Positions 26,792 to 48,023 of a DNA stretch of 64,000 bases are shown piece by piece. The stretch is from Clavelina lepadiformis. Lineage: Eukaryota > Chordata > Ascidiacea > Aplousobranchia > Clavelinidae. Both the position numbers and the translations under genes were made by a program. Position 1 is the stretch's first letter, and every line of letters starts with the position of its first letter. The stretch covers positions 19,284,501 through 19,348,500 of the forward strand of contig NC_135247.1 of the NCBI RefSeq assembly GCF_947623445.1, in the 5' to 3' direction. The notes under the pieces are model-generated. The model was not told the origin of the DNA. It searched no databases and saw only the letters and a program-made list of their open reading frames with translations.

Positions 26792-27863
26792 ATGTCTGTT
26801 GTTGGAATCCTGTTTTCGACGCTAGCACTGTCAAAAAATTTAACTGAGAACATTTCGGTTGAAGAAGTCAACCCATATTCGCCTAAAATTCTATGTTCTT
26901 TGCTGTAAGTTCTTAACTTTAACTCCTAATTTAGTTTGTTACCATTTTGCCTATGTATGTTTGTTTTACGTTTTACAATTTATAAGTTTTTAATATTTGT
27001 GTTTGCAAATTGGCAATATGCTTTTTGCCATTTGCAAAGTTTTGTTTGTACACAAAAACTGAAGTTACCGATTCTTCTTGAAATGTGTATTTATGTTTTA
27101 ACTTTGAAATCATGCTGACTGATTCAGATTTTATTTATACTTTATAGCTTAGTGTATATTGATATCTTTGCCGCTAAAACTTAATATATTTTACCATAAT
27201 TTAAACGGTTTCGTTTGATCAGTCGTCATGAAGCATCCATGCGTGATACAGCATGTACAATTTACTTTCATCTTTTTAGACCCCCTGAATTTATTGTTTG
27301 TAACGAACCACTGTTTGCTCCTGACCAAGCTAACTCGACAACGTCGGAGTTCATTTGCCCAGAACAGGTGAGCAGCTGTTATACTGGACTTGTGTTTTCA
27401 GGATATGTTTGTTTTATCATTGTTTAGTTTAACATTTTGCGAATATTTAAGAAAGAAAAAAAGTATCGCTACGAGAACGTGTCGCATGTGTCGGTGTGGT
27501 GTCACGTTGTAGACGACTCAATTTCTTGTGCGGGCGACAGGAACTTTACAAAGAGCGGCTTTCCTTGTGTGCGGTGAGATGAGTGTTTATGAGATTTTTA
27601 TTGCTTAAAACCAAGACTGACACTTTTGTTGCCATTCCTTTCTATTCAGCTACACTGGGTATTGTTTCATCACAATCTTCTTGCAATCTGTTTTCCTTGG
27701 TTGCTTGGGGGTTGACCGGTTTTCACTTGGACTTACTGGCACAGCAGTTGGAAAACTTTTAACACTGGGTGGCGTTGGTGTGTGGTGGTTTGTTGACATC
27801 ATTTTGCTGCTGACTGGTAACTTGGGCCCCGTGGACAACAGTAACTGGTGCATTTACTACTGA
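26792..27863 (+). CDS. TM2D2: TM2 domain-containing protein 2, 4 exons
   Basis: Two-pass membrane protein related to fly amaretto, one of three TM2D proteins linked to Notch signalling. Exons 26792-26904, 27280-27367, 27452-27573 and 27650-27863 give 178 residues. A short hydrophobic N-terminus ([14 protein letters not shown]) acts as signal peptide. Then come [17 protein letters not shown], matching the family's CSYLPPEFIEC, and a cysteine-rich luminal region. The TM2 domain has [20 protein letters not shown], the DRF motif between the helices and [17 protein letters not shown], and ends DNSNWCIYY. The [16 protein letters not shown] stretch and NWC-end distinguish TM2D2 from TM2D1 and TM2D3. 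IGBP1 begins 16 bp after the stop, so both are probably transcribed as one operon. Confidence 0.95.
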
Positions 27864-27879
27864 CATCACAATTGCAGTC
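27864..27879 (+). promoter_or_regulatory. 16-bp operon junction with trans-splice acceptor
   Basis: Between the TM2D2 stop and IGBP1 ATG lies a stretch ending in ATTGCAG at 27871-27877, two bases before the ATG. A splice acceptor with essentially no intergenic space is the arrangement described for Ciona operons resolved by spliced-leader trans-splicing. No separate promoter fits here. Confidence 0.7.
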
Positions 27880-28854
27880 ATGGAGGATTTGTCTAATGGC
27901 AGGAAGTTAGTCGATGTATTCAACGACCTGTGGGCATTGTATCACGAGATTGACAACTCTGTAGAGTTGACATTATCGGAAAAATATCAGAATTCCGTGA
28001 AGAAATGTTTGCAAACTCTCAATTTTCTTTCTCAAACTGTGCGAGAGTTGTCAATGTTCAGTGATAACGAGGACTTTGAAGAAGTTGCAACATCTGATCT
28101 TCGTTACTTTGTTCTCCCGGCTCTCAAGGCCACTCTCATCCAGAAGAAACAAACTGACATCAATGGAAGAGGCGACATCTTGAAGGAGTCGCTCGAGCAC
28201 TTCGTCAGTTTTTTGAAACTCTGCAGTAATTATGGACTTGGCCCCGCCTCCCAACTTGAGAGAATTATATCTGGTCGGAGCAACTCAGAAGAGAAAATTG
28301 GGGGAAACCCCGACCTAGCTGCGATGAACGCAGCAAGAGAAACAAAAATTGCAAAATATCGAAAAGAAAAGGAACAAGCTGCGTTGATGAAAGATCTGGA
28401 AGGAAAACTCCAGGATGAGGAGATTTTAAGAAAATATTGGCTCCTGCAAATCAACAAATGGATCGGCAAAACCATCGATGAAGTGACAAGTGCCAGGTTT
28501 GAGTTGGAGATGCTCACCAAGATGAAGGATATCCCTCGTGCTGAGCTCAATGAAAAGAAAAGTTGCAAGAAACCTTCTGCTGGTAAACCTTTTATTCTCA
28601 CTAAAGATAGACTCCAGGCATCTGTGTTTGGTGCTGGCTACCCCAGTTTACCCACCGTCACCCTGGATGAGTTCTATGAAAGGGAGTTGGCGGCCGGTCG
28701 CATGTCTGCCCGGGGACAAGACCAGATTAAAGTTGGTGAAGAAAAAGACTCTGATGATGATGAAGATGATGAAAAAGTCAAGAAGCAGAGGGACTTTGAC
28801 GATTGGAAGGACACCCATCGTAGAGGGGCTGGCAATCGCAAAAACATGGGCTGA
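27880..28854 (+). CDS. IGBP1: IGBP1 / alpha4 (TAP42) PP2A-binding protein
   Basis: Cytosolic regulator that binds and stabilises catalytic subunits of PP2A-type phosphatases, acting in TOR signalling. It is a single exon of 324 residues, near the human 339. The N-terminal TAP42 helical domain includes LVDVFNDLWALYHEID, VRELSMFSDNEDFEEVATSD and DLRYFVLPALKATL. A coiled, Lys/Glu-rich helix follows (about 165-190). The C-terminal part has LQASVFGAGYPSLPTVTLDE, the conserved FGAGYP-to-FYE segment, and ends with an acidic tract and WKDTHRRGAGNRKNMG. Start choice is fixed by the splice acceptor two bases upstream. It lies immediately downstream of TM2D2 and probably depends on trans-splicing for its own mRNA cap. 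Confidence 0.96.
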   Translation: MEDLSNGRKLVDVFNDLWALYHEIDNSVELTLSEKYQNSVKKCLQTLNFLSQTVRELSMFSDNEDFEEVATSDLRYFVLPALKATLIQKKQTDINGRGDILKESLEHFVSFLKLCSNYGLGPASQLERIISGRSNSEEKIGGNPDLAAMNAARETKIAKYRKEKEQAALMKDLEGKLQDEEILRKYWLLQINKWIGKTIDEVTSARFELEMLTKMKDIPRAELNEKKSCKKPSAGKPFILTKDRLQASVFGAGYPSLPTVTLDEFYERELAAGRMSARGQDQIKVGEEKDSDDDEDDEKVKKQRDFDDWKDTHRRGAGNRKNMG

Positions 28855-29218: not shown

Positions 29219-32200
29219 ATGGGGTGAGTTGGTTGCTATCGTTCACTAGTTTGTAAGATTTTTATCTTAAAACATGATCTTGTCAACTCCTAAGGTTACC
29301 GTGTCAAGTTAAAGTGACAGATAAATTGCAAGATGATGCCTATGATGGTGTTGTCATAGTTACTGATGACTTGCAGAATTTGAAGGATGAATTGGCAGTT
29401 TTCCAGGGTCCCCTTGCAGCCATGAAGGAGGTTGGTTGTTGCAGTGATTAGATTTAAACTTGAGTTTCTGGTGGAGAAAATATTGAGATTATTTCTTATA
29501 TTTGTTGAATGGCAGGCAGACGCTTCAGTAGGGACCGGTGTCACCATCGTGCCAATGCCAGCTCCGATGAAGAGGGTGGTAGGTTCCGCATCTCTTTGAT
29601 TTCTTCCCGGTTCAATGCAACAACTTACTTTATTTTGCTGGGTCAGATTTTCTCCAGCACGGGTCCGTTGAATCGAGATTACGACGATGTCCGAAGATTT
29701 GCCGATGCCGCGCGGGTCGGGTTGAAGAGAGCCGTGAAAGCCGGATGTGAAACTCCTCTGCTGGTTACCATCGGCAACAAAAGGTGCTTCGATGAGTTCA
29801 GAAATAAGAAAAGATTGTTTTTAGTTGGTCCACAGCAGATTTCCTTCTCAATTCACATGACTTTGTTCCCTTAAATCAGGTTTCCTGAGGCAGAATTTGC
29901 ATCAGTTTTGGGCGCATTGGAGGGAGTTTACGTTCCGCTCGAGATTCGGGAAAGTCGACCTGAGGGGGAGAAAAAGGTATTCTCTCTTATTTTGAACTGT
30001 TTTTGCATAAAGTGAAGGGCAAGTTGAACAAAAATTTGCCTTAAATCAAAGAATAATTGTCCGAAAATACACTGGTGAAAGGACTTGTACTTGTATGTAG
30101 TGATTATATGTAGTGTTATTGTTATATGATAAATAAGTGCCAGAAAACGCGAATTCATCGCATGATTATGATGGAGACGGCGGTTCTTATTCGGTCACCA
30201 CGAAGCAAACAATGTGCATGACCCAGGTATTTGGATCATATGGTTGAGAAGTAACAGGTTTAATTAAAACGAGCTTACATGTGCAGCAGCGGTTTGTTGC
30301 ATTAAATAAGCCCAAGTCAGCTAAACGTTGGTGAATGTGGATGCTAAGCTACAGCTCAGTCTTTGCTGCTGGCTCTAGGCTAGTACGGTAGCTGCGGTAA
30401 AAGCAAGAATGCTTTACCAGTTTATGTGCTATCACTTGTGACATTCCTATGCTGAAAATAAACATTACCTGCTACTAATCATGTGCCTATGGAGACATAT
30501 TCCATCTAAAACACATCAGCCTAGCACTGCTACCATACCTAATACTGTACAAATCCCAGTCATCAGGCATATTACTTTTTTATCGTGACGTCATAATGAC
30601 CGCCCTCTCCGTCATAATAGATGGCCAAAATTGGGATAAACTTTTAGAAATAACTAACAAACTACTAGGTATTAGTAAAATCCATTCACCAGTATAATTT
30701 CTGGCAATTACTTCGCGATTGGACAAGTTGGGTCTCACCCTGAAGGTTAATTGGGTTCATGGTCTTAACCGAAAGTAGCAAAATCTTACTCGGGTTCAAG
30801 CTTATTTATAGAATTTATGTTAAGTCTCGTGTGTATGAAGATCATCGTTTGCTTTTGTTGTTTCAGGTAAGGTTCATATTTTCAAGAATTATAATATATC
30901 TATGTAGAGCCTGTGTGGCTTAAACTAAAGGAAGACGATTTTTTGATTAAAATATATCTAAATAACTTGTTTTATATCAGAATAAGTTGACGAATTTGTT
31001 TTATTCTCTCAGATCAAGATACTGTGGATTTTTTCTAAGAACACATCTGGTGACTTTGAGAAGAAGGTTGAAGCTTACGAGGGTGCAAGGTGCGTCATAA
31101 CTGCGATGTGTTAATGATAAGAGCAGAGGTTCACAGAATAGCAAAAATTCCAGATCACTCGTTCGGGATATTCAGGGGTCAGACCCAGAGCGAATGGCGC
31201 CACCTCGTGTTGCTGAGCATGTTACGAAGCATTTTAAAGATTCTTCGGTTGAGGTGGGCATGCAGTGATGACGTCATTCTTTTGTTACGTGGATTCCCTA
31301 AAATTACTTTTATGACCAGGTTGAGGTCATCTCTGATTGTGACGTCATTGAGAAGAATTATCCTTGTTTGGGAGCAGTGAACCGATGCGCCAAACGTAAT
31401 GTGAAATACTCTCTCATAATCATCATAATCATCATATTGTTCATTGTCATCTGACTATTCCCTCTATTATGTCACAGTGATACCACGTCATAATGCGAGG
31501 GTTGTTAAGCTTTCATACGAGGGGGAAGGTCCAATCACAGAAACCATCTTTCTTGTTGGGAAGGGGGTCACGTATGACACTGGTGGGGCTGACGTCAAGG
31601 CCGGGGGGATCATGGCGGGAATGCACCGGGATAAAGGGGGTGCATCGGCAGTCGCAGGATTCTTTGAGGTTTGTGATGTCATAATAGTACTTTTTATTGA
31701 AATGACGTCGTGCTTGAGAGTGGTTTATGATTGAAGGCTCTCGACAAACTTCGTCCGAAGCATTTGAAAGTCCGTGGTACGATGTCTATGGTGAGGAACA
31801 GCATCGGGGCAAATTGTTACGTTGCTGACGAGATAATAACAGCGCGCTCTGGTGTTAGGGTGAGGCCTCGTGCAAAATTTGCGAACTTTATGTTGTTGCA
31901 ATCAATCTAGCCCCGTCTTCGTAACTTCTTCTTCTCCTCCAGGTTCGTGTCGGCAACACTGACGCGGAGGGCCGGATGGCGATGGTGGATTGTCTGTGTG
32001 AGGCGAAGGAGGTCGCGGTCGGAGAAGTCAACCCGCAGCTTTACACCATCGCCACACTCACCGGCCACGCCATCATCGCTATGGGCCCCGGATATTCGGT
32101 GAGGACTTTGCTGAGTCATTGTAATCTGGGGTTGGGGTTAATTCTTAATCTGGGGTTAGGGTTAATTCTTAATCTGGGGTTAGGGTTAATTCTTAATCTG

Positions 32201-33354
32201 GGGTTAGGGTTAATTCTTAATCTGGGGTTAGGGTTAGTTCTTAATCTGGGGTTAGGGTTAGTTCTTAATCTGGGGTTAGGGTTAATTCTTAATCTGGGCT
32301 TAGGGTTAATTCTTAATCTGGGGTTAATTCTTAATCTGGGGTTAATTCTTAATCTGGGGCTAGGGTAAGTGCAAAGTGACAATTTTAAGGGAAGTAACCC
32401 AGTGGTTATTGAATACATGAATCAAAATTACAAGCAGCGGGAAAAATGCATTTTGCGTTCTGACCCTTCTCTGCAATCGACCAAATATTGTCATTGAGCC
32501 TGATGGAGGGCGCTGTCGATCCCGAAACAATCATTTTGAAAGGAAACAGCAATCGCGTGTTTGCTAGAATCGTTCTAAAAGTTGCGCGTGTTTTACCAGA
32601 GATGTTGATTAATCGTAGTCAGTAATGACATAAATTATGGTATAGAACATAGAAATCATCTAGAACACGTCGTGGGCCTACAATGGTTGCCTGTCCTGGA
32701 TGTTCTTGCAAACACGTGATCAATGTCATCTACGATTAATTGAGTAATGAGCCGCAAAAATTTGTCAATAATTCACGGGTTAAAGAATTCTTAAAAGTTG
32801 GCAGCCACTGTACCAGGCGTTTGTTGTGAGTTGTGGGGCTGAAATTTGCTTTTTTGTCGCGGACAGATCGCGATGGACAATGGACCGGCTCGTGACGTAA
32901 ACAATGCTCAATTGTTACGCAAAGCAGGAGAGAACATCGGTGACATGTTTGAAATTTCAACGATTCGACGAGAGGATTATGAGTTCCACAAAGGTGAGGT
33001 GTTATTTGTAGACCGGGTCAAGATCGTCTGATGACGTGCTCTGTCCTCCAGGAAAGTCCGAATACGAAGATGTCCTCCAAAGCAACAACTTTCCTTCCAG
33101 CCGCACCCCCAGGGGCCACCAAGGACCCAGCGCCTTTCTTATTATGACGTCAGGACTGGATAAGGTTTGGTTTGGAGACTTTAAAACTGTGCCGTAGTGA
33201 CGTAATAATCTTTACTGTGTCTTAGCACGGGATCGACTCATCGAAGCCGCTCAAGTACACCCACCTGGACATCGCCGGGTCGGAGGGGGCATTTCCGGGA
33301 ATCCCCACCGGGTGCCCTGTCCCCGCGCTTGCAGCGAAACACTTTCAGCAGTAG
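29219..33354 (+). CDS. Peptidase M17 (leucyl aminopeptidase)-like protein
   Basis: Predicted cytosolic metallo-aminopeptidase homolog of 509 residues, of the invertebrate type named after C. elegans W07G4.4. Exons: 29219-29223, 29295-29430, 29516-29578, 29647-29783, 29880-29976, 31013-31089, 31154-31253, 31320-31395, 31478-31668, 31737-31859, 31943-32098, 32867-32993, 33052-33164, 33226-33354. The first exon encodes only MG plus two bases of a codon. The N-terminal macro-like domain has DDAYDGVVIVTDDL. The catalytic part has GKGVTYDTGGADVKAG, MHRDKGG, where most LAPs have D-M-G-G, and the M17 signature VGNTDAEGRM. So the metal ligand residues look present, with one substitution in the second motif. 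The C-terminus has KYTHLDIAGSEGAF. Activity cannot be judged from sequence alone. A minisatellite lies in the intron after 32098, and the 1-kb intron after 29976 holds nothing recognisable. Confidence 0.92.
32118..32366 (+). repeat. 24-bp telomere-like minisatellite in M17 intron
   Basis: About eight copies of a 24-bp unit, AATCTGGGGTTAGGGTTAAT plus TCTT, then shortened 18-bp copies lacking GGGTTA. Every full unit contains TTAGGGTTA, the animal telomere motif, or a variant of it. Because 24 is divisible by three, all frames stay open and read as false repeat proteins such as LNLGLGLI. It lies inside the intron 32099-32866. Confidence 0.93.
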
Positions 33355-33400
33355 CCGCGTGTTCCCTTCGTGCCTGATTCCTTTACGTCATTGTTGCAAT

Positions 33401-33406
33401 AATAAA
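33401..33406 (+). terminator. M17 gene poly(A) signal
   Basis: AATAAA 47 bases downstream of the stop codon. Confidence 0.75.
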
Positions 33407-34407
33407 ACATTATGATGCAAAAAACGAATTACTTTTAATTTTGAGATGTCTATATCAAGCGCAATAAAATTAATCATCCAAATTATTTTGTCTTGTCTTT
33501 GGCTACTCAGCGTTTTTGACGTCATCATCATTAAGGGGGACTGAGATTGTACAGAATCGTGTTTTTTTGGATTCGGTCGGAATTTTTTTTCTGCCGAATC
33601 CTACAATCTGGTTTTGCAAATATTCGTGTCGTAACATCGGCTTCTGCAGCATAATAAGGAATGAAAACAACTGAACTGACGCGTGCTTTGCTGTAACTTG
33701 CAAAGTACGTAAATGAAATGAGTTCCATAAATTTCTTTTTGTGTGCAACAACAATTATATCCGCTATTGTTGTGTTTCCTCTGCAATGACAGAATTGTCA
33801 CGCAGATTTTTAGAACTGTTCAAAATATTCGGACGAACCTGAAAACGAATTCGCCTGAAAATAGAATTTAGGTGGTTTTACCCAATTCGTCTCAATTTTC
33901 TGTGCAAAATATTGATCGGTTAGGACCGCCCCCCACCCCCCCCCCCCCCCGACCAATTCATCTTCAGTGGTAACTTGTGATGTGATGAAACAATCTGTTC
34001 ACCATTTTGCTTATTATGTGCTAATGACACTGTCGGTAAACATAAACGAAATGGCGACAAAGAAGTTTCGCAACATGGCGGCCTATGTAAGCGAAGCAGA
34101 TCATTTCTCACCAAAGAATTATTCATGAAAGAAGTCAAAGCAGCCAATGTTCGTCCAGGACACAACTTTATTCAACCTTATAAGTTATAACCTATTTCTC
34201 CACCATATTTTATTAGAATCTATTTTCGCGTGAAAGAAAACTCTATGACGTCACAATACTGGCACAAAGAGTTTCGTTCTTTTTCAATTCATACGATTGC
34301 GTTGTTTGCTCTTAATAACAGGGTTTCCTTCTGAATTATTGATGATTATTTGAATTTTTTGAACAAGAGTTTATGTTGGTCACAACCATGAAATACTCCC
34401 AAGAAAG
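33407..34407. other. Intergenic upstream of adhesion GPCR
   Basis: No gene recognised. A cytosine tract (33929-33950, interrupted by one A) is the only obvious feature. It probably contains the adhesion GPCR promoter. Confidence 0.5.
33929..33950 (+). repeat. Poly(C) tract
   Basis: 22 bases, all C except a single A at 33935. Such tracts are prone to length error and can form i-motif/G-quadruplex structures. Confidence 0.9.
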
Positions 34408-37400
34408 ATGAGTGGGAATTTTTTCATGTTAATTCTGGTGAGTTTGCTTTCTTTAAACATAATTTGTTGCGTTAATATTGTATAAATTGTGTTATTTGTG
34501 TCTAATTACATCAATTTATATTTTCAATTTTCAAGATAAACTTAATTTGCAGATGTATCAAGCCGCTCGGGGGGAAATCCTCGAAGGTGGGTTCTGGACA
34601 ATTTATCTTTAAATATAGCCGCCTATGGTTGCTACCAGGCATAATAATCATCAAATATAAGCCACAACGGGTGAAAAACAGAGCTTTGTTGTTAAAGTTG
34701 AATTAAGGTTGAATGAAGTCTGTTTTTCACCAGTTGTTGTTTGTATTTAGCTTAAATTTGCCAAAATCTTCGATATTTCATCGCAGGTTTCCAGACATCA
34801 CCAGAATCTTGGAGACTGTTGATGTTGGGGGATGCACCGAGCTGTCCGCTTAAAACTATCAAAGGTTTATATCGTTTCGATGAACACAATTCAGAGTTTA
34901 TTGAAGAAAGTCCCAAATTTGAAGATTCTCGACATTTAGTTGTTGTCGGCGTCAACGATTCGTGGTCTTTGGTGAAATCTTCAAACAAATCAGATGTGAT
35001 GGCTCGGGTAACTTATTATTGCGTCACAATGAAGAATAATAGAGTTAAAATTTCTATTGATTTATTTTAAATTCTCGATAACAAGCAACAAGTAGCTTCT
35101 TTGAAGTTTCCGAATGAATTAAGAAATAATTTTTTTGACGTCATAAGCACAAAACGCTTTTTTATGAAACCAATGGTTCGCGAAAACCTTGACCTCAATA
35201 TCGCAGACGGTTAACTTCACAACGATTGAGAAAGGAGTGCTCAAAGCGAGCTTTGAAGTGAAGTCAGGAAACAAATTCTTTTTGGATAAGAACTGCTCTT
35301 TACTGCTGTTTAGCGGTAAGTATATTATGTTGATATGACGTCACAGGACAATCAGTTCAATGAAACGTTTGCAGAATTGAAGTTTCACAAATTTTCTGGC
35401 GCGGCGTATACAGTGATGCCACTAAAAACCTTGTTCGAAGAAGCTCAGACAATATGCCAGGCCATGGATGGAAATGTGGCGGCGCCATGGGATAGCCTTA
35501 CCTTTTCAAGAATGTTAGACTTGCTGCCACTTAGGGGCGATATATTTTGGACCGGTTTGTTGATTTATTTAAGTTTTCGCTCGTAATTTTTTCCCGCCAA
35601 TTAAATTCTCATCGCACTTTTGCTCTGATTGAAGGATTTTTCCGGTCGTCGCCAAACCAGCCTTGGAGTTATATGATGTATGACGTCATCTTCGATCTAC
35701 GACATGATTACTTAAACCTGACTGGTTCTGGATGCGTAGAGATTACGTCAGAAAATGTCCTCAACGTTGTCGATTGTGATGAAACAAAGAAGTTTGTTTG
35801 TCAGACAGGTAACATCGTCTTATTTCAAAAAGAGTTGACTCATCCTGGGGTTGATCTTTTCCCCGTAACCAGGGCAACACTTTTTCTTCGGCGGGAACTG
35901 GATCAAGTTCTACAACTTGGAAAGAAGTCGTCAATCTGCTGCCGCTGTGTGCGCCAGAGATCATCCGAATGGGAGGATGTTGGCTCTTTCTCCCTTCCCG
36001 GTCTTGTATCGATACGCGGCCAATCTATTCAACTACAACCACGTCTATTTGACAGGTTCATTTCAGGGATTTTATCGCAAAATTCTGATTTTAAGTGAAT
36101 CTTTGCGGGTCGTATTTTGATGTCAGTGCAAGGAACCGGCGGGTTGGTGACTTGCTTACTACTTGGTCATGTGACTGCGTTGAAGACGACGCGCTGTGCA
36201 GAGGCAACGCAAATGTTCTGCGCATTAATCAACGTCATATTCCGTTTGTGACGCAGACGTTTTATGGGATCCGGAGCTTGGACTGCACTTCGGCAACGGC
36301 GACCTCTACTCGAGAGGTTTTAGCAAATGGGGGGAAGGTTACCCCGATAAGAGCGGATGCGTGGCGCTTGACATGGAAGCCAGTGGAAGTGGCCTCACGG
36401 TCGACTGCGATGAGTTTGTTGGAAAATTTATCTGCCAACACCCCCCAACCGTGGAAGGCAAGTTTAGAAATTTCCTGAAGTTGAATCGAACGGAAACTTC
36501 TATTTTAGATTTTGAAAGTTGAAACCTTCCGCCTTTGCAGGAGTTGATGAACTGTTCCACTACCAAGGAGAGATAATTTGGTTCCCCGTCGAAGAAGGAA
36601 ACTTCACAGAGGCGCAAGAGATTTGTCATCAAAACATCAACCCGATGCAGTCGATAGACACCTTTCACTTCTACTCCCGGCTCGTGGAGAGAATGTATTT
36701 CTTTAAAGTTGCTGATAGGAAGGTCGGGTTCATTCCATTAGTTGTAACTCTGTTATATGTTATATGTGTATAATGTTATACTGTCGTGTTTAGCTTTGGG
36801 TCAATGTGGGTGAAAACGTCAACATAGAAGACGGTTTTCCCAACTTCCACAGCGGGAATGGAAGAATCGGTCCCAGATGCGCGATGGCCGCCTTCGACCC
36901 GCTGCCATCACTACAATGGGGAAGCTGCGAAGAGGCAGCCAGTCCACTGTGCCAGGCCAGTAAGTCGCATCCTGTCTAAGTAAACTAAACAAGATTCAAC
37001 TTGTGAAGATTTTCACAACATTCAACTTTTGTGACGTCATATTCCATTACTTGTGACGCAGTTCAACCTACCGCGGAATGGGCCACAACCTCGCCAGTTT
37101 ACTACTGCCCTCCAGGGTACACTTTGCTGAGCTCGTCACAATGCTATTATTACGTTAAGAACGTAGCGACGTGGGTGGTTGCGCAAAGAACGTGCGAGTT
37201 GTACGGCGACCTCGTTCTTGCGTCGGAGGATGACGTCAGTGCCGCTCTCATCTACATCCTGCTCAGATACGAGGATGGGACTGAAGCATGGACCGGAACC
37301 TGCGCTGGAGGTTGATTTTTCTCTTCCTCTTTCGATTTTGTTCTTCTTTTTAAAAATGACGTCATTCTTTCAAAAGATTCTGACGACGTTGTCGATTCAA

Positions 37401-40400
37401 ACGTCACAGAGGCGAAGATAGGAGAATGTGCCGCGTTTCAGGTCGACCAGAGAAATGCGATGGAAAGCGGAGTCAAATTTTACGAACGGACGACCCCCCT
37501 CCCCTTCATTTGCCAGGCCCGGCCCTCACAACAGGTGATTCCCCTGCTAATCGGGTGTGAAGAAATAAAAACCGCGATTTGTAGAATCTCTTCCTTGATT
37601 AGGTTTGGGAAGATAGAGGAGACCTCATGGAACGACTCGTTGAGTCCCAGACCTTGCTGGACCCTTCCCATTGCCCCCCGGGGTACCTTTCCCACCCCGA
37701 CCAACCCAGCTGCTTTGGGTTAGACGATCAATCAGCTTCGTGGGGCTCAGGTTGCCATGGAAACGTGCTGATGTCTTATCACACTTTCGAAGTTCACGAC
37801 TTGTTGACGTCAGCCATGACGTTATTCCTGTTGAAATCATTTGATAGGTTTGTGGTGATTTATGAGATTTAGGTTGTGTGTGCACGGTGTAGGGGAATCC
37901 CGGAAATACGTGAGAATGTTGGGACGTGTGCTGAGTAGATTAATGAAGTAGATCTATGCACACTTCTCAACATGAGTAAAATGTTTAGTCACCTATCACT
38001 TGGTGAGATGAAGGCAAGTTTATCCAATTACTCAATTTACTCCGGGCAAGAAATTTTGAAGTTTGCATTAAGTTAGTCAAGCAAAAGCCGACCTCAAATT
38101 GCGCAAATTAACTTTAAAGCTTACTCAGGTCTGTGGAACCTTCCTTGTAAAATAGCAACACTTAAGCTTTCGTCGCTTTTTGGAAACTGTTGAAACACTG
38201 AATTCTCCTCATTCCGCTCAAAATGAGACAATTTTCTATTCAAAAAAGTTTTTTAAAATTAAACTGTTCAGCTTTGCTTATGTTGCTGCATTTTTTCTTA
38301 AACATTCACTCTTTAAACAAAGTTATATTACTTGGGCTGCAACTGCAAACAAATTTGTTTTTAAATTTTCGATGGTTTGGCTTTCGTGTTCATCTGCGCG
38401 GGTTGTGACCAAGACCTTATCGATATTTCAAGCTTTGATACAAAACAATCCACACCTCGTTATAGTTTGAGTTAATCGCCAAAGATTCCGCGTCAATGTG
38501 GTTCGAGACGGATCCAGTCTTACTCAATTTCCCTCCGAGCTCTTATCCCAGTTCTCATGCAGGGCTTGGATTGGTCTCACCACTTTTCACGACGTCGCTC
38601 TGTGGTCTGATGGTGAAGTCGATCAGGTCCTGGAAAGGTGGCAGGGCGGAGCGATGAACAACACCGATGCGCTTCAGTGCGTCTCCATCAACCAAGATGG
38701 CGAATGGTTGCAGGAGAGCTGCGACACGAACCTTCCGTCGATCTGCCAAGTCAAAGACTGCTACAGGAACACACATGTCGACTACAGCGGAAAGGTTGAA
38801 TATATTGAACCAACCTCCCGCAATTTTCACTACTGTGTACATGTTTGTGTGCCTGTGTGTTTGTGCGTGTATGTGTGTGTATGTGTGTGTGTGCGTGTTT
38901 GTGTGCCTGTGTGTTTGTGCGTGTTTGTGTGCCTGTGTGTTTGTGCGTGTGATCTACTCTGACGATTTAGAATGGTTTGTTTCATTAATAAAATATATTC
39001 AGGCTAACACAACCAGATCAGGTTTTCCCTGCCGAAGCTGGTCGAGTCTTTCCCCGGAAGATCTTTCCACATATCCCGCTGAAAATCATAGTTATTGCCG
39101 GGGTCATGAGGATTATTTCGCCCCGTTCTGCTTCACACAAGACGAAGATATGAGGTGAAAATTCTTTCTACATAGTGCTACTACGTCATCCGAACAACCC
39201 ATTTTTTTGCAGATTTGAATCTTGCGACGTCTCCTTCTGTGACGCAAGAAACACTTCGAACATTGCCGCGGTGTCAACGCTGCGTTGGAGTAATCTCACA
39301 TCGGTTGATGTTGTCGTGTCGTGCATGGATGGAGAGAGCGTCTACGACTGCCGATGCGCGAACGAGCACTGCAGGGGAGTTGACGTCACAGATAACCATG
39401 GATGTGTCATATATGGGCCGGGAAGGGGGAGCGGATTTCTTACGCAAGGTCAACTTGCTTAAAGCGCGCGCTGGTATTGGGTGACTGTAACGTCACTATA
39501 GAAACCTAACAACATTCATTTCAGGGGTGGCCGGCTGTCAGGTAATCGCTGAAACAATCCACACCAGAACTGTTGTCAAAACCGGATATGACGTAATGTG
39601 GATCAGGTGTCCTTGGTTCTTGCCCCTGGTTGGCTGTTTTGCAAGTGACGTCAGTGATGCAAGCCCAAGGCAAGATCTTCTTTGAAATTTAAATTAAATA
39701 AATAAATTGCTGAAAAGTTGTTAAAAAGTATTCAAGAAAACTTGGTTATTTCATCACAATATCGCGTCAATACAAAATCGTGAAACTTAACTTTTGAAAT
39801 GCAGGAGCGCGTTCGGCGGCGGAGCTCGGACGTATTGGTCATGCTGGGACGACAATAGAAAGTCGACTGCTACTCTAACCGCGGTGTGCGCCACAGAGCA
39901 CCGAAGCATGGACTTCCAGGGAGGAGTGAGGAGAGATCTTAACAATGAAGTCGTCACAATCGATGGCGAGCACAACCCCACCTTCGTCTCCCTCACTCAC
40001 ACCGACTTCAACAACATCTGTGTCTGGGTGAGACCCGAAGAACTCGGGACGCTCTTCTACGCCGCTGAGGAGGGACTTTCCCCCTACTTTGCGCTCTATG
40101 ACAACCTGACCTCGGGGGTATTTTTAACGCCCGACACATCCGCTTCAGCATTTGACACCTCGAGACTATATGACGGGACGTGGCATCAGATTTGTGTGAC
40201 GTTGCATGTGGCGGTACCACACCTGGCTTCAACAGTTTGCCAGCTCTACATCGATGGTTTTCTTGAAGTTGAGACATCTAGTGGGCGAAATTGCACGATG
40301 GAGGGTAAGTCTGGTCACTTCGTCATCGGGTCAAGTGACGCATTCGTTCCCATTGTGACGTATAGAAACGGCACGTCCTCTATGGTTGAGCACGTCCGTT

Positions 40401-43400
40401 CAGAAGACGAGAAACGAGACCAGGAAGTGTTCCCCCTACCTCAGTTCGTGGGGTCATTGGGTTTCATTTATGGATCACGTGACCTTATGTCGGCGTCAGA
40501 TATCGAGAATCTCGCTTTCAATTGCGGGGGGAGCGACAACATTTTTGCGTCACAATCATTCAATGTTTTTGGCTTTGTGACGCGACTGTGGAACATTGAT
40601 CCCTGTTTTGAATATTCAAATCAGTTCACTGTCGACATAAACATAAACTTCGATCAAGCAGACCGTGATATTGACGTCATAATCAGCTTCGAGCCAGTGA
40701 ACGCCGACATGCTTCAAAGCATTGGGGTCGAAACTTTGTCGCTGAATGTTTCCTACGACCTGGTCATCAAGGAAGAAAAAAGGTTCTTTTTTTCACTTAT
40801 TCTGAGTCCTTAGAATTATCGCATAATTGTTCGCATTAAGCCCGTTTGTACTAATTTACAAACACACCATTTCATGCTTTCAGCACCGCGCAGTTCATTT
40901 CATCAGCAAGCTTTCCACTCAGCCAGGAACAAACTAAGATCAAGAAAACTTTGAGCAACCCCGAATATAGTGCTCTCTATCGCTTTCAAGCGGTGGTCAA
41001 TAGTGGAAATTTAGAAACCCACCACACGAGGGAGTTATCAGTGACACGTGACTACCACAGCAAGCCAGACATCGTAACAAACTTGGGGTAAAAGTATTTC
41101 TGGTTTTCTAGATTTTGCATAATAACCCAAAGTGACGTAATCTTTCTGCAGACCAATTCTTGAGGATAAGCCTGTTGTGGGTTCTGACGTCATATCGTGG
41201 ACCCCCTCTTTGAATGGAAACAGCGATGAGTTCATTGTTAAGCTTTACCATGTCGATGATGTCACCAGAACCCTCCTTAGTGAGGAAAATGTTGGGGAAT
41301 TCACCGCTTACGTCATAGGTTTGGCAAATCAACATTTCCAGGTTACCGTGCTCTAAGTATGACGTCGCTATGCTTTTGCAGACGCATCATCAAGCGACCA
41401 CTTGGTGCCCGGGCAGCCTTACTTAGTCGAGGTCAGTGGCCGGTATCATGGAGTGGAGGGGGCGCCCGTCTACTATAGGGGAAACACCCAGCCCACGCCC
41501 CCCGTGATCACCAACGTCAGAGCACTCTCCACCAGGATATTCGGCGAAGTCTCCATGGCGGTCGTCTGGGAACAAAATCACCCACAGTTCTCCAGTTTCT
41601 ATGTCATAACCGCGGTAAAAAGTAAGTGACGTCGTTGTTTGTTGCATGACGTCATCGTGTACACGTAGTGAGTGATGATGAACTTTTGAACTTCAGAAGA
41701 CGACGGCTCGTCAATCAGCCACGAATTCCATTCTTCCGTCACAAGCTTCCAACTGGACAAACTTGAACCTGAAACCAATTACACTGTCACGGTCACGTGC
41801 CACTTTGGAGATAAGTACAGCGAGTCTGAACCTTATTACGTCACAACCGGATCTTCAGTGAAATATTTCTTTGGAGTAGAAAGGTGAGTGGATACTAGCT
41901 AGCCTGGACAACCACGTACCGTTCAGCCTCCTGCTTGACAGGGTCGATCATCAAACCGTTCTCTTCCGCTGGGAGGTTTTCCCGACTTGCGAGCGCTACC
42001 TGCTGGGAGCCGACGCCATTTCTCCGATCAACGATGCGTTCGACCAATCACAGTGCGATGACGTAGGCGCCATTGAACCCGTCATTGTATATTGCAATCA
42101 ATACATTCGAGAATTTTCGATGACAATGGCGACAAACGTCACGCTTCCTCAGACAGGTATGTGATATCTTACTCGATGCTTCCACTATGACGTCATTTCA
42201 ATATTTCTTGCCAAGGTTGCCGATATCGTTTCTCTGTCTCCCACTACGCCTCTGACGAACTTATCGAACCCAACTTCGAACTGATCAGTTATTTTTTGAA
42301 TCCGAAACCGATTAGTCCAGTGACCGGTCTTATTCTGCTCTCATCCAGTTCGAATCACCTCGAGTTCGGTTGGGATCGGCCGGACCCCGCTGAGCTTGTC
42401 GATAGGTATCAGGTGAGATCTCACAAATTAACAATAGCTTAACGTCATAGTTGGATTGATGACGTATGTGTTCAGGTTTCTTTGACGGAGTGCGGGTCGA
42501 GCTTTCCGACTTTATCGTCGGTTTTGTCCAACTCGCTCAAGTACACGGCGTCCAACCTAGTTGGGGGAACCCTCTACACTTTCTCCATCATCTGTTTACA
42601 TGAATATCTTGCTAGTGACGTCATTTCACTCGATGTTCGATCGAATTTCTCTGATTTTGGCTCAAACAGAAATTGCTGTGACGAAACACCAGAACGAACT
42701 GAAGTGTCATGCTTGGAGGATTTCTCCCAATCGCGGGAGGAAAACAAGAAAAACAGCGAAAGAAGCGTTGTTGTGTATGACGTCACAATGACACCCCCTC
42801 ATATAAAGTGGACATCTTTGAACATTACTGAACAGGCAAGGACAGAACTTTAGCTTTTATGGTTTCTTCTAACTGGACGTCATGGGTTAATTGTGTCCAG
42901 GTTGATTTGCTGAGTTGTTCCGGACATCTTTGCGCGGATCCCGGTATCTGGTCGCCCTGGTCCGCCTTCCGACCTTGCACTCGTTCCTGTGGCAACGGCA
43001 CACTCCACCTGACCCGCTCGTGCCTGCCAAGGTCAAGTTCAAAGATAGCGCCCGTGTGTGAGGGCAGTGAGGAAAAGGAGGCACCTTGTGGAAATGACCC
43101 CGTAAGTTTTTAACAAAAATTTCAGAAAATGTTTAGAGCACGTGACCGGAGCGAACCTTTTGCTGCTGCAGTGCCCGGTCGACGGAGAGTGGGGAGGTTG
43201 GTCGTCATGGGAACCCTGCATTGTTTTATGCGGAATTCGAAACTCGACCAGGACGCGTTCCTGTGACTTACCGGCGCCCACTTACGGGGGAAAAAGTTGT
43301 CCAACATCTCACTGTGGTCAGGCGCTAAAGGTAAGATGATATAAGAATACCTGCCCTGCATCCTGTTATTGTTGTGTCGTTTCCGCAGGAAACGGAAGTG

Positions 43401-46400
43401 AAAAAGTGTGAAGGGAGGGATCCATGCCCCGGGGACTATTTCTGGGGTAACTGGTTCCCCTTCTCGGCATGCCACGTGACTTGCGGTGAGTCAGCTAAAC
43501 GCGCCAGAGAGCGTCGGTGTGAATGGACACAGAAGGAATATTTAAATTCGCACGAGTGCCCGGAAGTAGAAACGGAAGTATTCCGCTGCGGGCCCACACG
43601 CTGCCCCCAACACGGTGGGAAAGTTGAACGATTAAATTTAAGTCATGACATCGATGTAGAGACAATGTTCGCTATATTTTCAGGGGTTTGGGGAACCTGG
43701 GCAGCTTGGACCCCATGTTCTGTTAGTTGTGGTGGAGGGGTGCAATTTCGTGCCCGGATGTGTGATGACCCTCCACCTTCTTTACACGGCGACCCATGTG
43801 AGGGGCTGCGGTATCAGCAGAGAGAATGCACACGTCGTGTCTGCCCCCAAAACAGGTTTGACCAGTTGTGAAGTAATAACGCTCCTGTATTTATGCTTAT
43901 CCCTGTATTGGATGCTGCAGGTACCACAGATCGGAGAGCAGTATTCCTCAGTGCCCGGGGGTTATCAGTTCTGACACTCGGCTACGATGGGAACCTGGGT
44001 ACACTGGGTCAACGCAAAATCAATCGTGTCCTGTGGGCACCGTGGGAATGGCGTACAGGAAGTGTTCTCAGAACAGGAAATGGTTGTCGGAGGAACTATT
44101 TGATTGCGTCATTCCTCCAATCAGTGTAAGTCGGTGAAAAGAACTTGAGTCTTGAGTCCATCTCATTGAATTTTAATGGTGCAGAAAGTTTTGAAGTATT
44201 TGGAGTCAAGCATTCCTGGGAAAGTCGCGTTCAAAGAAATAGAAACGAGCGTGAACAATATTTTCTTGAGGAATGTCGCGGAATCCCAGCTTCAAACTCA
44301 CGGAGATCTAAACGCGATCGAAAGTAAAAAATGTTCAATAAATTTTGTAATTGTTGTTGACTTTTGTATAAAGTAATGTCAGAAGTTCTTAGTCGGAGCT
44401 TTCATTCAGAAATATTGAAAGAGCTGCTGGTTTGGAATCCCTTTCTCTTCGAGGACGCCTCAAGAAGTGAGAGGCTTGACTTCATCAACCTCTTTACGTC
44501 ATCGATGGAGCAACTCCTGCGACCGGATCACAGTCATCTCTGGTCAGGGATGAACATTTCAACTTTGCAGCGGTCATTGAAGGTAGGTCCACTCTGCTGC
44601 CTTTCCCAGTCATCGAGTGACGTTCTCCACTTCTCAGCAACTTCTCTCAATCCTCGACGACGCGTCACTTGGAGCAATGAGTAACTTGGAGAGTGGCTCT
44701 TATGCAAATTACCGGACCGCAACCAGCCCGGATTTAAACATGCTCCTTGTCGCCAAATCTGGATGGAGAGAAATTGTAAAGTATCCACAACACGGTGACC
44801 CGGAGTACAGGTACTTGATTAAAAACAATAGAATTTAAAATGAAAATTTTTAGTGTCGATTAAACTTTTTAGCATAAAATTCTCTTCGTCGTTGTTGTTA
44901 TTAGCAAAGACGGATCATTTGTGGAAATACCGAGCAACGTCATAGAGACCCCAGACAACAATACGGTGCAGCTCTCCCTTCTCAAGTTCAACAACAATTT
45001 CGACTTGATGACGTCACTTCCGACAACGTCACTTGTAAATGGCGCTCCCAGCTTCGACGGTAGAACCCTGAACAGTGCTCTGATTGGTGTTCAGATGCTC
45101 GTTGATGGGAAACTACGTCACCACCTTGACAACCCTATCTACGTCACGTTTTATCACAAAAGGTGGGTAAAGAAAAAAATCGATTGAAGTCTGCAGAAAT
45201 TAAAAGTTGTGTTGGCCGCAGGGAAAGCAGAAACCCTCTGTGCGTGTTTGTTGATCTTCACTCTCAAGTCGGAGTCTTTAACGATGATGGGTGCAAGGTA
45301 TTCAAGATCAGACGCAACTCAACCGTCTGTGAATGTCGTCACCTTACTACGTTTGCTCTTCTTAGCCATGACGTGATAGACGATGACGTCAGACAGGGAT
45401 TAGTCATGACGAACTTCATGTAACAATCAATTATAAGATTTTTGTTTGTTAAAAATATAAAGTTTTACGTCACGGCTTATTTCCAGTTCGTTGGTGGAGA
45501 ACGTCGGTTACCTCTCGATCGCCATCCTCCTGCTGGCACTTGCGCTGGTTTCATTCGCGCAGACGTCGACCACGAGGCTGACGTTTCTCTCGTTCAACGT
45601 CATCGTTGCAGGTAACTCGCTCCACAAAAAATCATCATTGTACAAACTTTGCGTTGTCTTTCTTGTGAACAGCTTTGTTACGACACGCGATGATGCAAGT
45701 TATTTTCCACTTTTGGACCAGCAACACGATGACGTGTGCAATTGTTGCGTTATGTCTAAGCTACGCATGCGCGGTGTGCTGTGTATGGCATGCGTTTCGC
45801 ATGATTGACGTCATCAGCCAAGCAAAAAACGTCAATCAAAAGGAGTGAGTTGAACTTTGACCTCAGTTCTCTTCTCTTCGGGAAATGCTGAGTCGTTTGT
45901 TTCAGATTCCGGAGCAGCTACAATATGGTTGGGTGGGGCCTCACCATCATGACGGCAACATCGCCTCTCCTGGTCCAGCTTCTCTATGATTACGAGGAAC
46001 AGGAATATCATCTATCTTGCGAGGAGATCTTCAGCTTCGAAGTGACGCTTCCATCCTGGACCTGCTGCGTCATCATCTCGGTGGTTTCTTTCCTCTTGTT
46101 TATCCATGCAGTGATGTTCTTTAACAAAGTCCAGGAGAAGTTGAATCCAGCGCACGCGTTGAGGTATTTTCAACCTGATCTCTCATTCACAATTGAGAAA
46201 CAATCAGTAGAAGAAAAAATTTTCCTCTTGCTAGGCTGGAAACATTGATCTGGTTGTTCGGCTTCTCCTGTCTATTCAACACCCTGAGCGTAGGAGCGTC
46301 ATTTTCAATCCTCTATCGGCTCTCACTCCCCATGGAAACAGTCCAGGTATTTTCTTCCCTCTTTTGTTCATTTTGTGAAGTTGGAAATTATTGATCAAGC

Positions 46401-46572
46401 AAAACCACTTTGATAGATTGTCTACTGCGCGGCAATTGCAATCGAAGCGATCTTTGCGATGATCAGTGAAGTTTGGCTGAACAAGGAGATTCGTGGCTTC
46501 TACTACAAACGCCTGGGCAGGAAGCCGCCGATCGACGAAGTCGTTTACCAACCACCGAAATATATTCCTTGA
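34408..46572 (+). CDS. Giant multidomain adhesion GPCR, 40 exons, 2761 aa
   Basis: Cell-surface receptor. Exons: 34408-34437, 34553-34586, 34787-35007, 35207-35315, 35375-35554, 35635-35808, 35873-36055, 36257-36457, 36541-36722, 36794-36959, 37062-37310, 37377-37534, 37603-37847, 38485-38794, 39003-39154, 39213-39448, 39525-39669, 39805-40782, 40884-41087, 41152-41318, 41382-41621, 41697-41883, 41942-42156, 42216-42412, 42476-42835, 42901-43101, 43172-43330, 43389-43614, 43684-43855, 43921-44125, 44185-44323, 44374-44582, 44638-44810, 44905-45162, 45222-45419, 45487-45611, 45673-45844, 45906-46163, 46235-46346, 46417-46572. They sum to exactly 2762 codons with stop, with no internal stop. 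Order: short leader (MSGNFFMLIL), five C-type-lectin-like domains (about 132-795), kringle (about 800-875), Cys-rich segment, pentraxin/LamG-like domain, FN3-like modules (about 1250-1760), four TSP1 repeats, HormR-like module, GAIN/GPS, 7TM and a short tail. Three introns start with GC. The first two exons are the least certain. The FN3 count is also uncertain. Confidence 0.88.
35375..38758 (+). other. Five C-type-lectin-like domains of the adhesion GPCR
   Basis: Domains on exons 35375-35808, 35873-36457, 36541-36959, 37062-37534 and 37603-38758. Typical pieces are CPPGYTLLSSSQCYYY with VVAQRTCELYGDLVL (domain 4), RGFSKWGEGYPDKSGCVALD with FVGKFICQ (domain 2), and WIGLTTFHDVALWSDGE with NLPSICQV (domain 5). 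The Ca2+/sugar motifs EPN or QPD and WND are not obvious, so sugar binding is doubtful. These folds often bind proteins instead. Confidence 0.85.
38759..39240 (+). other. Kringle domain of the adhesion GPCR
   Basis: Split over three exons, it reads DCYRNTHVDYSGKANTTRSG, then FPCRSW, ENHSYCRG, FAPFCFTQDED and RFESCDVSFC. Six cysteines and the Y-x-G, T-x-S-G, C-x-x-W, N-x-x-Y-C-R and C-x-x-x-x-C landmarks fit the kringle pattern. Kringles are known from coagulation proteases, HGF, ROR and KREMEN, and I know of none in a vertebrate adhesion GPCR. Confidence 0.85.
38844..38951 (+). repeat. TG-rich microsatellite in adhesion GPCR intron
   Basis: Imperfect GTGTGCCTGTGTGTTTGTGC-type repeats within the intron between the two kringle exons 38485-38794 and 39003-39154. 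It keeps one frame open and extends a false reading of the preceding exon. Confidence 0.9.
39860..40540 (+). other. Pentraxin/LamG-like domain of the adhesion GPCR
   Basis: Inside a single unusually large exon. Signature pieces are FNNICVWVRPEELG, DGTWHQICVTLHV and STVCQLYIDGF, then FVGSLGFIYGSRDLMSASDI. This jelly-roll fold is known in several adhesion GPCRs (for example ADGRG6, ADGRD1). Confidence 0.8.
40620..42600 (+). other. Fibronectin-III-like modules of the adhesion GPCR
   Basis: Repeated beta-sandwich-like segments with W in the B strand and Y/L-x-V patterns in F/G strands: VGSDVISWTPSLNGNSDEF, LVPGQPYLVEVSG, LEPETNYTVTVTCHFGD, NHLEFGWDRPDPAE and LVGGTLYTFSIIC. Several modules are divergent, so a count of four to six is an estimate. 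Confidence 0.65.
42901..43855 (+). other. Four thrombospondin type 1 repeats
   Basis: One repeat per exon: WSPWSAFRPCTRSCGNG, WGGWSSWEPCIVLCGIR, WGNWFPFSACHVTCGES and WGTWAAWTPCSVSCGGG. Each is followed by a spaced set of cysteines. Tryptophan ladders W-x-x-W are visible in the first, second and fourth. The layout resembles the TSP1 block of BAI (ADGRB) receptors. Confidence 0.93.
43921..44125 (+). other. Hormone-receptor-like module
   Basis: A single exon with CPGVISSDTRLRWEPG, SCPVGTVGMAYRKCS, NRKWLSEELFDC. The spacing C-W-G-CP-A-C-W-C resembles the HormR module that precedes GAIN in BAI, CELSR and latrophilin receptors. Confidence 0.65.
44185..45419 (+). other. GAIN domain with GPS cleavage site
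   Basis: Helical then beta-rich region ending in NPLCVFVD, GCKVFKIRR and TVCECRHLTTFALL. Four cysteines with the C-x-C-x-H-L-T core give an intact HL-T cleavage site at about residues 2462-2464. Self-cleavage and a tethered agonist beginning TTFALL are expected from the family. Confidence 0.9.
45487..46572 (+). other. Seven-transmembrane domain of the adhesion GPCR
   Basis: Five exons encode seven hydrophobic helices, including IAILLLALALVSFA (1), TCAIVALCLSYACAVC (3), WTCCVIISVVSFLLFI (5), LIWLFGFSCLFNTLSVGASF (6) and CAAIAIEAIFAMISE (7). The sequence is highly divergent from vertebrate receptors. The tail is about 30 residues with a proline/tyrosine-rich end (VVYQPPKYIP). Confidence 0.85.
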
Positions 46573-48023
46573 ACATGATGATGTCTATTGTAGAGTACCT
46601 GTGATACTTGAAGCTATCTCACTGTTAGCTGGTTGTAGACCTACGGGATACCCCAATCTTCAATTTGTAGAAAGCGCAAACTTTGAAAATGCAAAGTTTG
46701 TTAAACTTTGAGTATTTACGTTTAGCTCGTAGTTAACTAAAAGCCGCTTAGAAATACCTTCAAAATGAAGTCAATTGATCCAGCTTTGAGCTTGCAGCTG
46801 GCAACTTTCAGCGTTTTAGTGCATGTAAATTTAGTGTAGATTTCTAGTTTAGCAGCAAAATACGTCACATTAAAATGATTGATGCAATGTGGGATGTTTA
46901 TGCGTATAACATCTGCTAAACAGTGTAAGAGTTGTCTTAAAATATAGGGTTTAAATGGAAAATTAATAACTGTAAATTCTGTATTTGGCAATATGGCATT
47001 TGTACACGTATCGTATAAAACTACAGTTATAGCCTATGCGCTGCAAAAATGTTTAAAAAGAATCTTCCCATCCTCCTGTCTTTGAAAAATTTTCGATATT
47101 TCAACTTTCACCTTCGGGAAGCTACAGCGCAATGAAAGACATTACGCTAGATATGTGTGGCATTGAACTGTTCCTGATCCACCACTGCCACTTGATATTA
47201 TTTTGTTTTGCCGAAGCACAGGCATAACTTGACGAGGATAAACGTCTCAAAAGATCGTCTGTGTGCTTTCTAGTCTAAAAGACGTCTGACTCGAAGACGC
47301 GTACAGGCAATAAAGAGGAAAAACAATAATTCTTTGCGCAAATAAACGTGGTGTTCTGCCGCTATCTAGCGGAGATGGTGGTGAACGCTACAATGGATCA
47401 AGACTGTGTTTTAAAGTCTATTAGTCGCAGTGGGTAGCAGAGTAAAATCAACTGATCATGATTGTGAGTTGTGACTGGTGCAGGGCTAAACGACGTATAA
47501 AGTTATATACAACTCAAACCAATTAATCATAGAATGCGTCATAATTACCATAATTAAACAAAAATTGTTGTAAGAAAGTTACTTTTGATTTTTGAAATAT
47601 TCATACAGACTATTAAAATTCTGCAATAACTTTTAAATTGCTGTCATTGGTATTGTGACTTTTTAAGGTTTTTGCTGGAAACACCGGTCGTAATTATTTT
47701 CCAATAATTCCTTGTCGATTTGCTTCAATCTTGTCTTAGCCTTGGCCAATAGACTGGCATACTGCCGGTATGGCTTGAATATAGGACCATGTACTGAGGC
47801 CACGCAAATTAGAATTATAGCGTAGGATCTAGGAATAGGATTTTATATTAGAAGCAAGTGCGTAGCTCGTGCGTCAACACCTAGGCTGCTTGCCCCACCT
47901 ATAAGCCTATCTGTCGCGTTCGGCTTGGTAGGCTAGACTGTTCAATATTTGTCTTGAAATTGCAGCAGATTTTTAGCACAATAATTCAGTAATTATAAGA
48001 TCAACTTTTTAGTTGAGACTTTG
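46573..48023. other. Intergenic, adhesion GPCR to USP20/33
   Basis: AT-rich sequence containing the receptor 3' untranslated region and the likely USP promoter. Open frames are short and none resembles a protein family. Confidence 0.5.

Follow-up and report, generated by a model that had tools for sequence, protein, structure and literature searches.

Among the adhesion G-protein-coupled receptors (GPCRs), the BAI (ADGRB) receptors have a long cytoplasmic tail with a PDZ-binding end, the latrophilins (ADGRL) carry lectin (SUEL/RBL) and olfactomedin domains, and ADGRG6 (GPR126) combines CUB, pentraxin/LamG and SEA domains. Here we analyse a locus of the ascidian Clavelina lepadiformis, at 34408..46572 (+) of a 64,000-nucleotide stretch of contig NC_135247.1 (the window; chromosome 8, here C8, positions 19284501-19348500), where a first-pass annotation had proposed one adhesion GPCR with an apparently unique set of ectodomain modules. 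According to two earlier reports, kringle and C-type lectin domains occur in the N-termini of adhesion GPCRs of amphioxus (PMC2246102), and Ciona has 30 adhesion GPCRs, 21 of them with a single GPS domain, and no BAI member (PMC2396169).

In the locus studied here, C-type lectin-like domains (CTLDs), a kringle, a LamG-like domain, FN3 modules, four TSP1 repeats and a borderline HormR precede a GAIN domain, a GPS motif with an intact HL/T cleavage motif and a diverged seven-helix (7TM) region. The reading that the region encodes an adhesion GPCR (class B2), as the first-pass annotation held, is well supported by sequence comparison because GAIN and GPS are present with HL/T, a continuous alignment to ADGRL3 extends from HormR to TM7, and cod BAI1 aligns with 22% identity over 84% of the TSP1-to-7TM region. 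Probably the whole locus is one gene for a giant, self-cleaving adhesion GPCR of about 2,720 residues, lectin-kringle ectodomain included.

The adhesion receptor core

The receptor half contains the following features:

39989..40339 (+): LamG-like domain, exon 18; Laminin_G_3 at 30.4 bits (cut-off 27.6), 4.9e-7, as a cut-out piece
42314..42592 (+): FN3 module with the best match, in exons 24-25; fn3 at 5.5e-15
42937..43174 (+): TSP1 repeat 1; TSP_1, bounds by eye
43181..43427 (+): TSP1 repeat 2; TSP_1, bounds by eye
43434..43604 (+): TSP1 repeat 3; TSP_1, bounds by eye
43614..43844 (+): TSP1 repeat 4, the best; TSP_1
43970..44107 (+): HormR, borderline; HRM at 26.5 bits (cut-off 26.2) as a cut-out piece, aligning to the ADGRL3 HormR
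44269..45100 (+): GAIN domain; GAIN at 1e-8
45235..45363 (+): GPS motif; GPS at 3.8e-9 (2.5e-8 in the genome search)
45488..46512 (+): strongly diverged seven-helix region; ADGRL3 alignment to TM7 and local profile
46513..46569 (+): short cytoplasmic tail, 19 aa, ending PPKYIP; from the gene model

The main Pfam scans, the PDB search with the HormR-7TM part, the kringle alignment and the null comparison were run on an earlier, 2,749-residue version of the gene model (the first model), which differs from the final one by 26 residues, in CTLD5 only. The predicted HL/T cleavage site falls between 45345 and 45346 (HLTTF at residue 2424), where GAIN and GPS match as the first-pass annotation had stated. 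ADGRL3 gave one continuous alignment from HormR to the end of TM7 in the PDB search (65.6 bits, E 2.5e-17), and a local profile of six 7TM sequences, two of which (L006 and cod BAI1) had been left untrimmed at the GPS, found the 7TM region at 1e-4 compared with 0.28 for the best of 500 shuffles. Within the ADGRL3 alignment the GWG of TM4 is kept, while the E-G of TM3, the W of TM6 and the Q-G of TM7, residues common in class B2 receptors, are replaced.

Upstream of HormR, the four TSP1 repeats and the FN3-like modules of the first-pass annotation were recovered, TSP_1 exceeding its cut-off in four stretches (2e-19) and fn3 in three stretches within residues 1266-2749 of the first model. The pentraxin/LamG domain passed the cut-off as a cut-out piece but no Laminin_G_3 was listed in the Pfam scan of the long half; against the PDB it gave two unrelated matches only, and structure prediction of exon 18 alone had a mean pLDDT of 33. 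Every module that had been proposed for the locus is present, with LamG, HormR, CTLD2-4 and 7TM weaker than the rest.

The lectin-kringle half

Upstream of the LamG-like domain lie:

34408..34576 (+): signal-peptide-like start MSGNFFMLILMYQAARGE, encoded by exons 1-2; judged by eye and by hydropathy, with a best 9-residue mean of 1.96
34577..35314 (+): N-terminal stretch of unassigned type, matching neither Pfam nor the local CTLD profile
35315..35807 (+): CTLD1; Lectin_C at 27.6 bits, local profile 15.9
35808..36441 (+): CTLD2, weak; local profile 10.8 bits against 6.6 for the best shuffle, no Pfam match
36457..36958 (+): CTLD3, weak; local profile 7.8 bits against 6.6 for the best shuffle, no Pfam match
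37097..37519 (+): CTLD4, moderate; local profile 21.0 bits, no Pfam match
37660..38752 (+): CTLD5; Lectin_C at 37.6 bits with acceptor 38563, local profile 35.2
38759..39240 (+): kringle; complete Pfam Kringle profile (1-79 of 79) at 44.0 bits (cut-off 34.3), 2.9e-11
39250..39553 (+): CM1, a cysteine-rich stretch in exons 16-17, drawn by eye and matching no family
39554..39907 (+): CM2, a second such stretch, in exons 17-18, likewise drawn by eye and matching no family

Lectin_C exceeded the Pfam cut-off in two stretches (2.7e-16 in the long-half scan), and Pfam gave nothing for CTLD2, CTLD3 and CTLD4, even as cut-out pieces. Against a local profile of nine CTLDs from the same genome (eight from the C5:4565-kb gene model, one from the C2:4578-kb receptor), all five segments outranked 1,400 shuffles, CTLD2 and CTLD3 narrowly. 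The count of five CTLDs is therefore strong for CTLD1 and CTLD5 and moderate for CTLD4, but CTLD2 and CTLD3 lie near the best shuffle. Calcium-dependent sugar-binding C-type lectins have an EPN or QPD motif plus a WND motif; none of EPN, QPD, WND or WNN occurs within residues 1-801 of the first model, which contain one YPD, at 339.

The kringle, already proposed in the first-pass annotation, is matched over its full length and resembles those of plasminogen and HGF. Compared with plasminogen kringle 4, E-D-Y replaces D-A-D and F replaces W at two positions, so the D-x-D and aromatic residues of the lysine-binding type are not retained. For CM1 and CM2, a resemblance to the C-terminus of PCSK9 was considered but found no support: they had no Pfam or PDB match, and PF18459, the one of three PCSK9 families that was searched genome-wide, had no match in the genome. 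A MAFFT alignment of CM1 with CM2 gave no sensible pairing.

Elsewhere in the genome, large multi-CTLD genes that also have a kringle were seen at C5:4565-4585 kb (L026-L027) and C8:1551-1561 kb (L028), several of their CTLDs having EPN/WND-type sugar motifs. An open frame of 1,802 aa that has no introns and contains five kringle matches (L023-L024, C8:19164691-19170096) lies about 115 kb before the window, and a run of Lectin_C matches (C8:19405741-19416431) about 57 kb past its end.

Gene model and the number of genes

A dynamic-programming gene finder, trained on the window and run without the exons of the first-pass annotation, first gave 42 exons. Hand correction, in which two tiny exons were dropped and three boundaries shifted by domain sense, led to the model at 34408..46572 (+) with 40 exons, encoding 2,723 aa plus a stop. 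Exon number and span are those of the first-pass annotation; its total of 2762 codons was not reproduced. The 39 introns (36 GT-AG and 3 GC-AG, after exons 8, 17 and 25) measure 55-715 bases with a median of 69, and the exons are:

Exons 1-10 (+): 34408-34437, 34553-34586, 34787-35007, 35207-35315, 35375-35554, 35635-35808, 35873-36055, 36257-36457, 36541-36722, 36794-36959
Exons 11-20 (+): 37062-37310, 37377-37534, 37603-37847, 38563-38794, 39003-39154, 39213-39448, 39525-39669, 39805-40782, 40884-41087, 41152-41318
Exons 21-30 (+): 41382-41621, 41697-41883, 41942-42156, 42216-42412, 42476-42835, 42901-43101, 43172-43330, 43389-43614, 43684-43855, 43921-44125
Exons 31-40 (+): 44185-44323, 44410-44582, 44638-44810, 44905-45162, 45222-45419, 45487-45611, 45673-45844, 45906-46163, 46235-46346, 46417-46572

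Both ends, 34408 and 46572, were recovered at intron penalties of -7, -8 and -9; a penalty of -5 moved the end to 47232, and one of -11 moved the start to 34553. Shifting the acceptor of exon 14 from 38485 (score -0.2) to 38563 (5.6) raised the Lectin_C match of CTLD5 from 34.0 to 37.6 bits. The coding score was 713 for the real region, 154-246 for 20 Markov-resampled sequences and 292 for the reverse strand, a comparison biased in favour of the gene under test, on which the scorer was partly trained. Each of the 20 resampled sequences also yielded a phase-fitting model, with 45-55 exons, so the fit of every splice phase, which the first-pass annotation had offered as support, is no evidence. 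Stronger proof of a real coding region comes from the domain matches and from a deposited protein. The NCBIfam scan had no match, nor had an Rfam scan of 33400-47500.

The deposited protein is C. lepadiformis P0001 (1,759 aa, 'unnamed protein product'), a match at 100% identity, which after an initial MT equals residues 993-2749 of the first model (exons 18-40) letter for letter. It links LamG, FN3, TSP1, GAIN and 7TM in one modelled protein, and its use of the GC-AG intron that follows exon 25 may mean that the modelling drew on RNA evidence. The single gene of the first-pass annotation is thus supported from LamG to 7TM by a modelled protein, but its link to the lectin-kringle part is not confirmed. 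That link is favoured by a chain of shared exons: exon 14 holds parts of CTLD5 and the kringle, exon 16 of the kringle and CM1, exon 17 of CM1 and CM2, and exon 18 of CM2 and LamG, the limits of CM1 and CM2 in this chain being drawn by eye. A signal peptide for the whole protein is offered by exons 1-2 only, the first in-frame ATG of exon 18 (39908) opens MDFQGG, which is not signal-peptide-like, and P0001 itself splices into exon 18 from upstream. On these grounds we consider it likely that one gene spans both halves.

Several observations weigh against a single giant receptor. The 7TM region had no match to Pfam 7tm_2 at E up to 1 and 5 (below the cut-off, only weak unrelated names appeared, DUF7937 at 0.012 and HPS6 at 0.01), and searched alone against the PDB it had no match up to E 10, so that the 7TM proposed earlier stands on the ADGRL3 alignment and the local profile. 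HormR, likewise aligned to that of ADGRL3, passes the HRM cut-off by 0.3 bits as a cut-out piece and is not in the genome-wide HRM list. The similarity between CM1 and CM2 is not significant, their local score of 26 being equalled by 607 of 2,000 shuffles. P0001 is without CTLDs and kringle and starts just before exon 18, and by so doing comes close to the separate CTLD-kringle gene ending before 42.9 kb that the first-pass annotation had set against its own proposal; the reasoning from its GC-AG intron also counts against the GC-AG intron 17, which is absent from it. The coding scores are equal for one gene (713.3), a split at 42.9 kb (712.2) and a split at exon 17 (714.5, with part of exon 17 counted twice) and are therefore no test of one gene versus two. 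We infer a single transcript across both halves.

Three sites around exon 17 bear on where the receptor might start instead:

39588..39592 (+): ATGAC/GT site inside exon 17, the nearest candidate for the 'MT' start of P0001
39596..39598 (+): in-frame ATG that opens a signal-peptide-like stretch, start of the receptor in a rival reading
39670..39804 (+): intron 17 (GC-AG), end of the lectin-kringle gene in the same reading

It is possible, though unlikely, that two adjoining genes are present. One would encode a secreted lectin-kringle protein and end in intron 17; the other would start in exon 17 and encode a separate receptor with the order LamG-FN3-TSP1-HormR-GAIN-7TM. P0001 starts there, and intron 17 has an in-frame TGA (39683-39685) followed by ATTAAA/AATAAA at 39693, 39697 and 39701; eight others of the 39 introns, however, contain poly(A)-like hexamers too. 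The stretch opened by ATG 39596, MWIRCPWFLPLVGCFASD, is signal-peptide-like and more hydrophobic than that of exons 1-2 (2.19 versus 1.96), and the coding scores do not disfavour a split. This reading, however, requires the two genes to share part of exon 17 and would divide CM2, if that is a real module; no deposited protein for the lectin-kringle half was found among lengths of about 564-4,811 aa.

Still less likely is a locus that makes a short receptor besides the long form, through an internal start or alternative splicing of exon 17. The MT start of P0001 fits the donor at 39593 (score 1.4), while the long frame uses 39670 (2.4); in 37000-39780, ATGAC is joined to a GT or GC donor at four sites, 37230, 37356, 37816 and 39588. 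By eye, however, the start of P0001 has no signal peptide. A decaying gene or a gene-model artefact is highly improbable, for although random sequence likewise produces many phase-fitting exons, and the 7TM region and two CTLDs are degenerate, the coding score is far above the 20 nulls, the 40 exons run without a stop, and exons 18-40 are identical to P0001.

The neighbourhood of the gene in the window includes a rhodopsin-family GPCR at 22632-24470 (-), with 7tm_1 at 4.6e-16 on 22632-23906 and an open frame at 23997-24470 that looks like its first part, a FAD-dependent oxidoreductase (DAO) at 15639-16733 (-) and a TAP42-like gene at 27814-28854 (+). By eye only, a USP14-like gene was noted beyond 48 kb and a leucine aminopeptidase at roughly 29.2-33.4 kb. 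Units of ttaatctggggttagggttaattc form a short tandem array at 32110-32370, in an intron of the upstream gene.

Proposed function and comparison with known receptors

If the single giant receptor is real, one transcript would encode a signal peptide and an ectodomain at the cell surface, in which five CTLDs and the kringle come first, then the two cysteine-rich stretches and the LamG-like domain, and last the FN3 modules, the four TSP1 repeats and HormR-GAIN. Self-cleavage of GAIN is predicted at HL/T, with the ectodomain staying held on the seven-helix part, whose new N-terminus (TTFALL...) would act as a tethered agonist. Binding to matrix or a neighbouring cell would then bring about signalling by pulling off or displacing the ectodomain. 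We would expect protein or matrix ligands and not simple sugars, because the CTLDs are without the sugar motifs searched for and the kringle is changed at the lysine-binding positions; TSP1 and LamG fit matrix contact by what is known of their families. G-protein coupling may be weak or altered, with adhesion possibly a main job, since residues common in class B2 receptors are changed in TM3, TM6 and TM7; the tail of 19 residues likewise makes the usual G-protein signalling less certain. Microbes or allorecognition ligands, suggested in the first-pass annotation, are speculation.

Tentatively, and with less confidence than we place in the single gene, a lectin-kringle block may have been fused to a BAI-like TSP1-HormR-GAIN-7TM core in a single tunicate receptor, which would be a lineage-specific receptor for cell recognition or matrix, acting mainly through adhesion and mechanical release; it is the lectin array without sugar motifs and the loss of the usual class B2 residues from the 7TM that point to adhesion. 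If the receptor is confirmed, an ascidian line other than Ciona has a much more elaborate ectodomain, the TSP1-HormR-GAIN-7TM order among its features, and a colonial animal offers a case of chordate recombination of lectin, kringle and thrombospondin modules on self-cleaving receptors. A further consequence would be that the N-terminal part of such receptors can go missing in automated annotation.

Within the same genome, at least 57 GPS places were listed. At least three of these 57 have Lectin_C within 15 kb upstream on the same strand (the studied locus, C2:4583098 and C2:14799297), and at least one has a kringle and at least one TSP_1, in both cases the studied locus; the counts are lower bounds, made by eye from exon-by-exon matching with 150 of 291 Lectin_C and 150 of 873 TSP_1 candidates scored. 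Outside the 57 lies the GPS of a receptor at C8:669-676 kb, which joins Kringle-GPS-7tm_2 in one model but differs in its typical 7tm_2 (124.2 bits) and in having no CTLD, TSP1, fn3 or LamG at E 0.01. Another, at C2:4578-4588 kb, shows two Lectin_C stretches ahead of its GPS and 7tm_2 but carries EGF modules, with no kringle or TSP1 matched. As a separate observation, C4:487851-3239894 (2.75 Mb) holds at least about 29 separate 7tm_2 places, counted by eye and many with near-identical scores, and none of the listed genome-wide GPS or HRM matches falls inside it.

Orthologues in other tunicates were not established: the protein searches returned P0001, an Oikopleura TSP1 protein, three cod BAI1 entries and TSP1 proteins, and since they were word-based and of limited sensitivity, the absence of relatives is weak evidence. 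The full module combination is not described in the open-licence literature searched, which consisted mostly of titles and abstract openings, and for the amphioxus receptors with kringle or C-type lectin domains the accessible part of the report describes no combination with LamG, FN3 and TSP1 (PMC2246102). The uniqueness claimed in the first-pass annotation thus holds, within the searches made, for the full set, which appeared in none of them, but not for kringle- or CTLD-bearing receptors, which are reported in amphioxus and occur separately in this genome.

A polycystin-1-like identity, considered for the pairing of CTLD with GAIN, was rejected in view of TSP1, HormR and the ADGRL3 alignment through TM7. 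With ADGRG6, also named in the first-pass annotation, the receptor shares a LamG/pentraxin-like domain ahead of GAIN, the one match on which kinship would rest; of CUB, LamG and SEA only LamG was matched, and ADGRG6 appeared in the PDB search at 31.7 bits over query residues 281-364 only. It resembles the latrophilins in HormR-GAIN-7TM, ADGRL3 being the best solved-structure match, but Pfam scans gave no SUEL/RBL or olfactomedin match, and TSP1 and the other modules are extra. The likeness to ADGRB/BAI, proposed in the first-pass annotation, is upheld by the shared order TSP1-HormR-GAIN-7TM, HormR being borderline here, and the cod BAI1 entries are the only adhesion-GPCR relatives besides P0001 among the 7,984 candidates listed. 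However, AGRB_N, at 206.2 bits in cod BAI1, has no match in the Clavelina model, the tail is short, and CTLD, kringle, LamG and FN3 are added. For the HormR-7TM part, the three cod BAI1 entries scored 25.6-28.7 bits, and in the PDB ADGRB3 and ADGRB2 scored 15.4 and 13.9. Because AGRB_N and the long tail are missing and ADGRL3 stands above ADGRB among solved structures, we do not file the predicted receptor as a BAI, although it would work in the manner of a BAI or a latrophilin; the resemblance is one of architecture. The single modules are known on adhesion GPCRs, and it is only the full set that is unusual.

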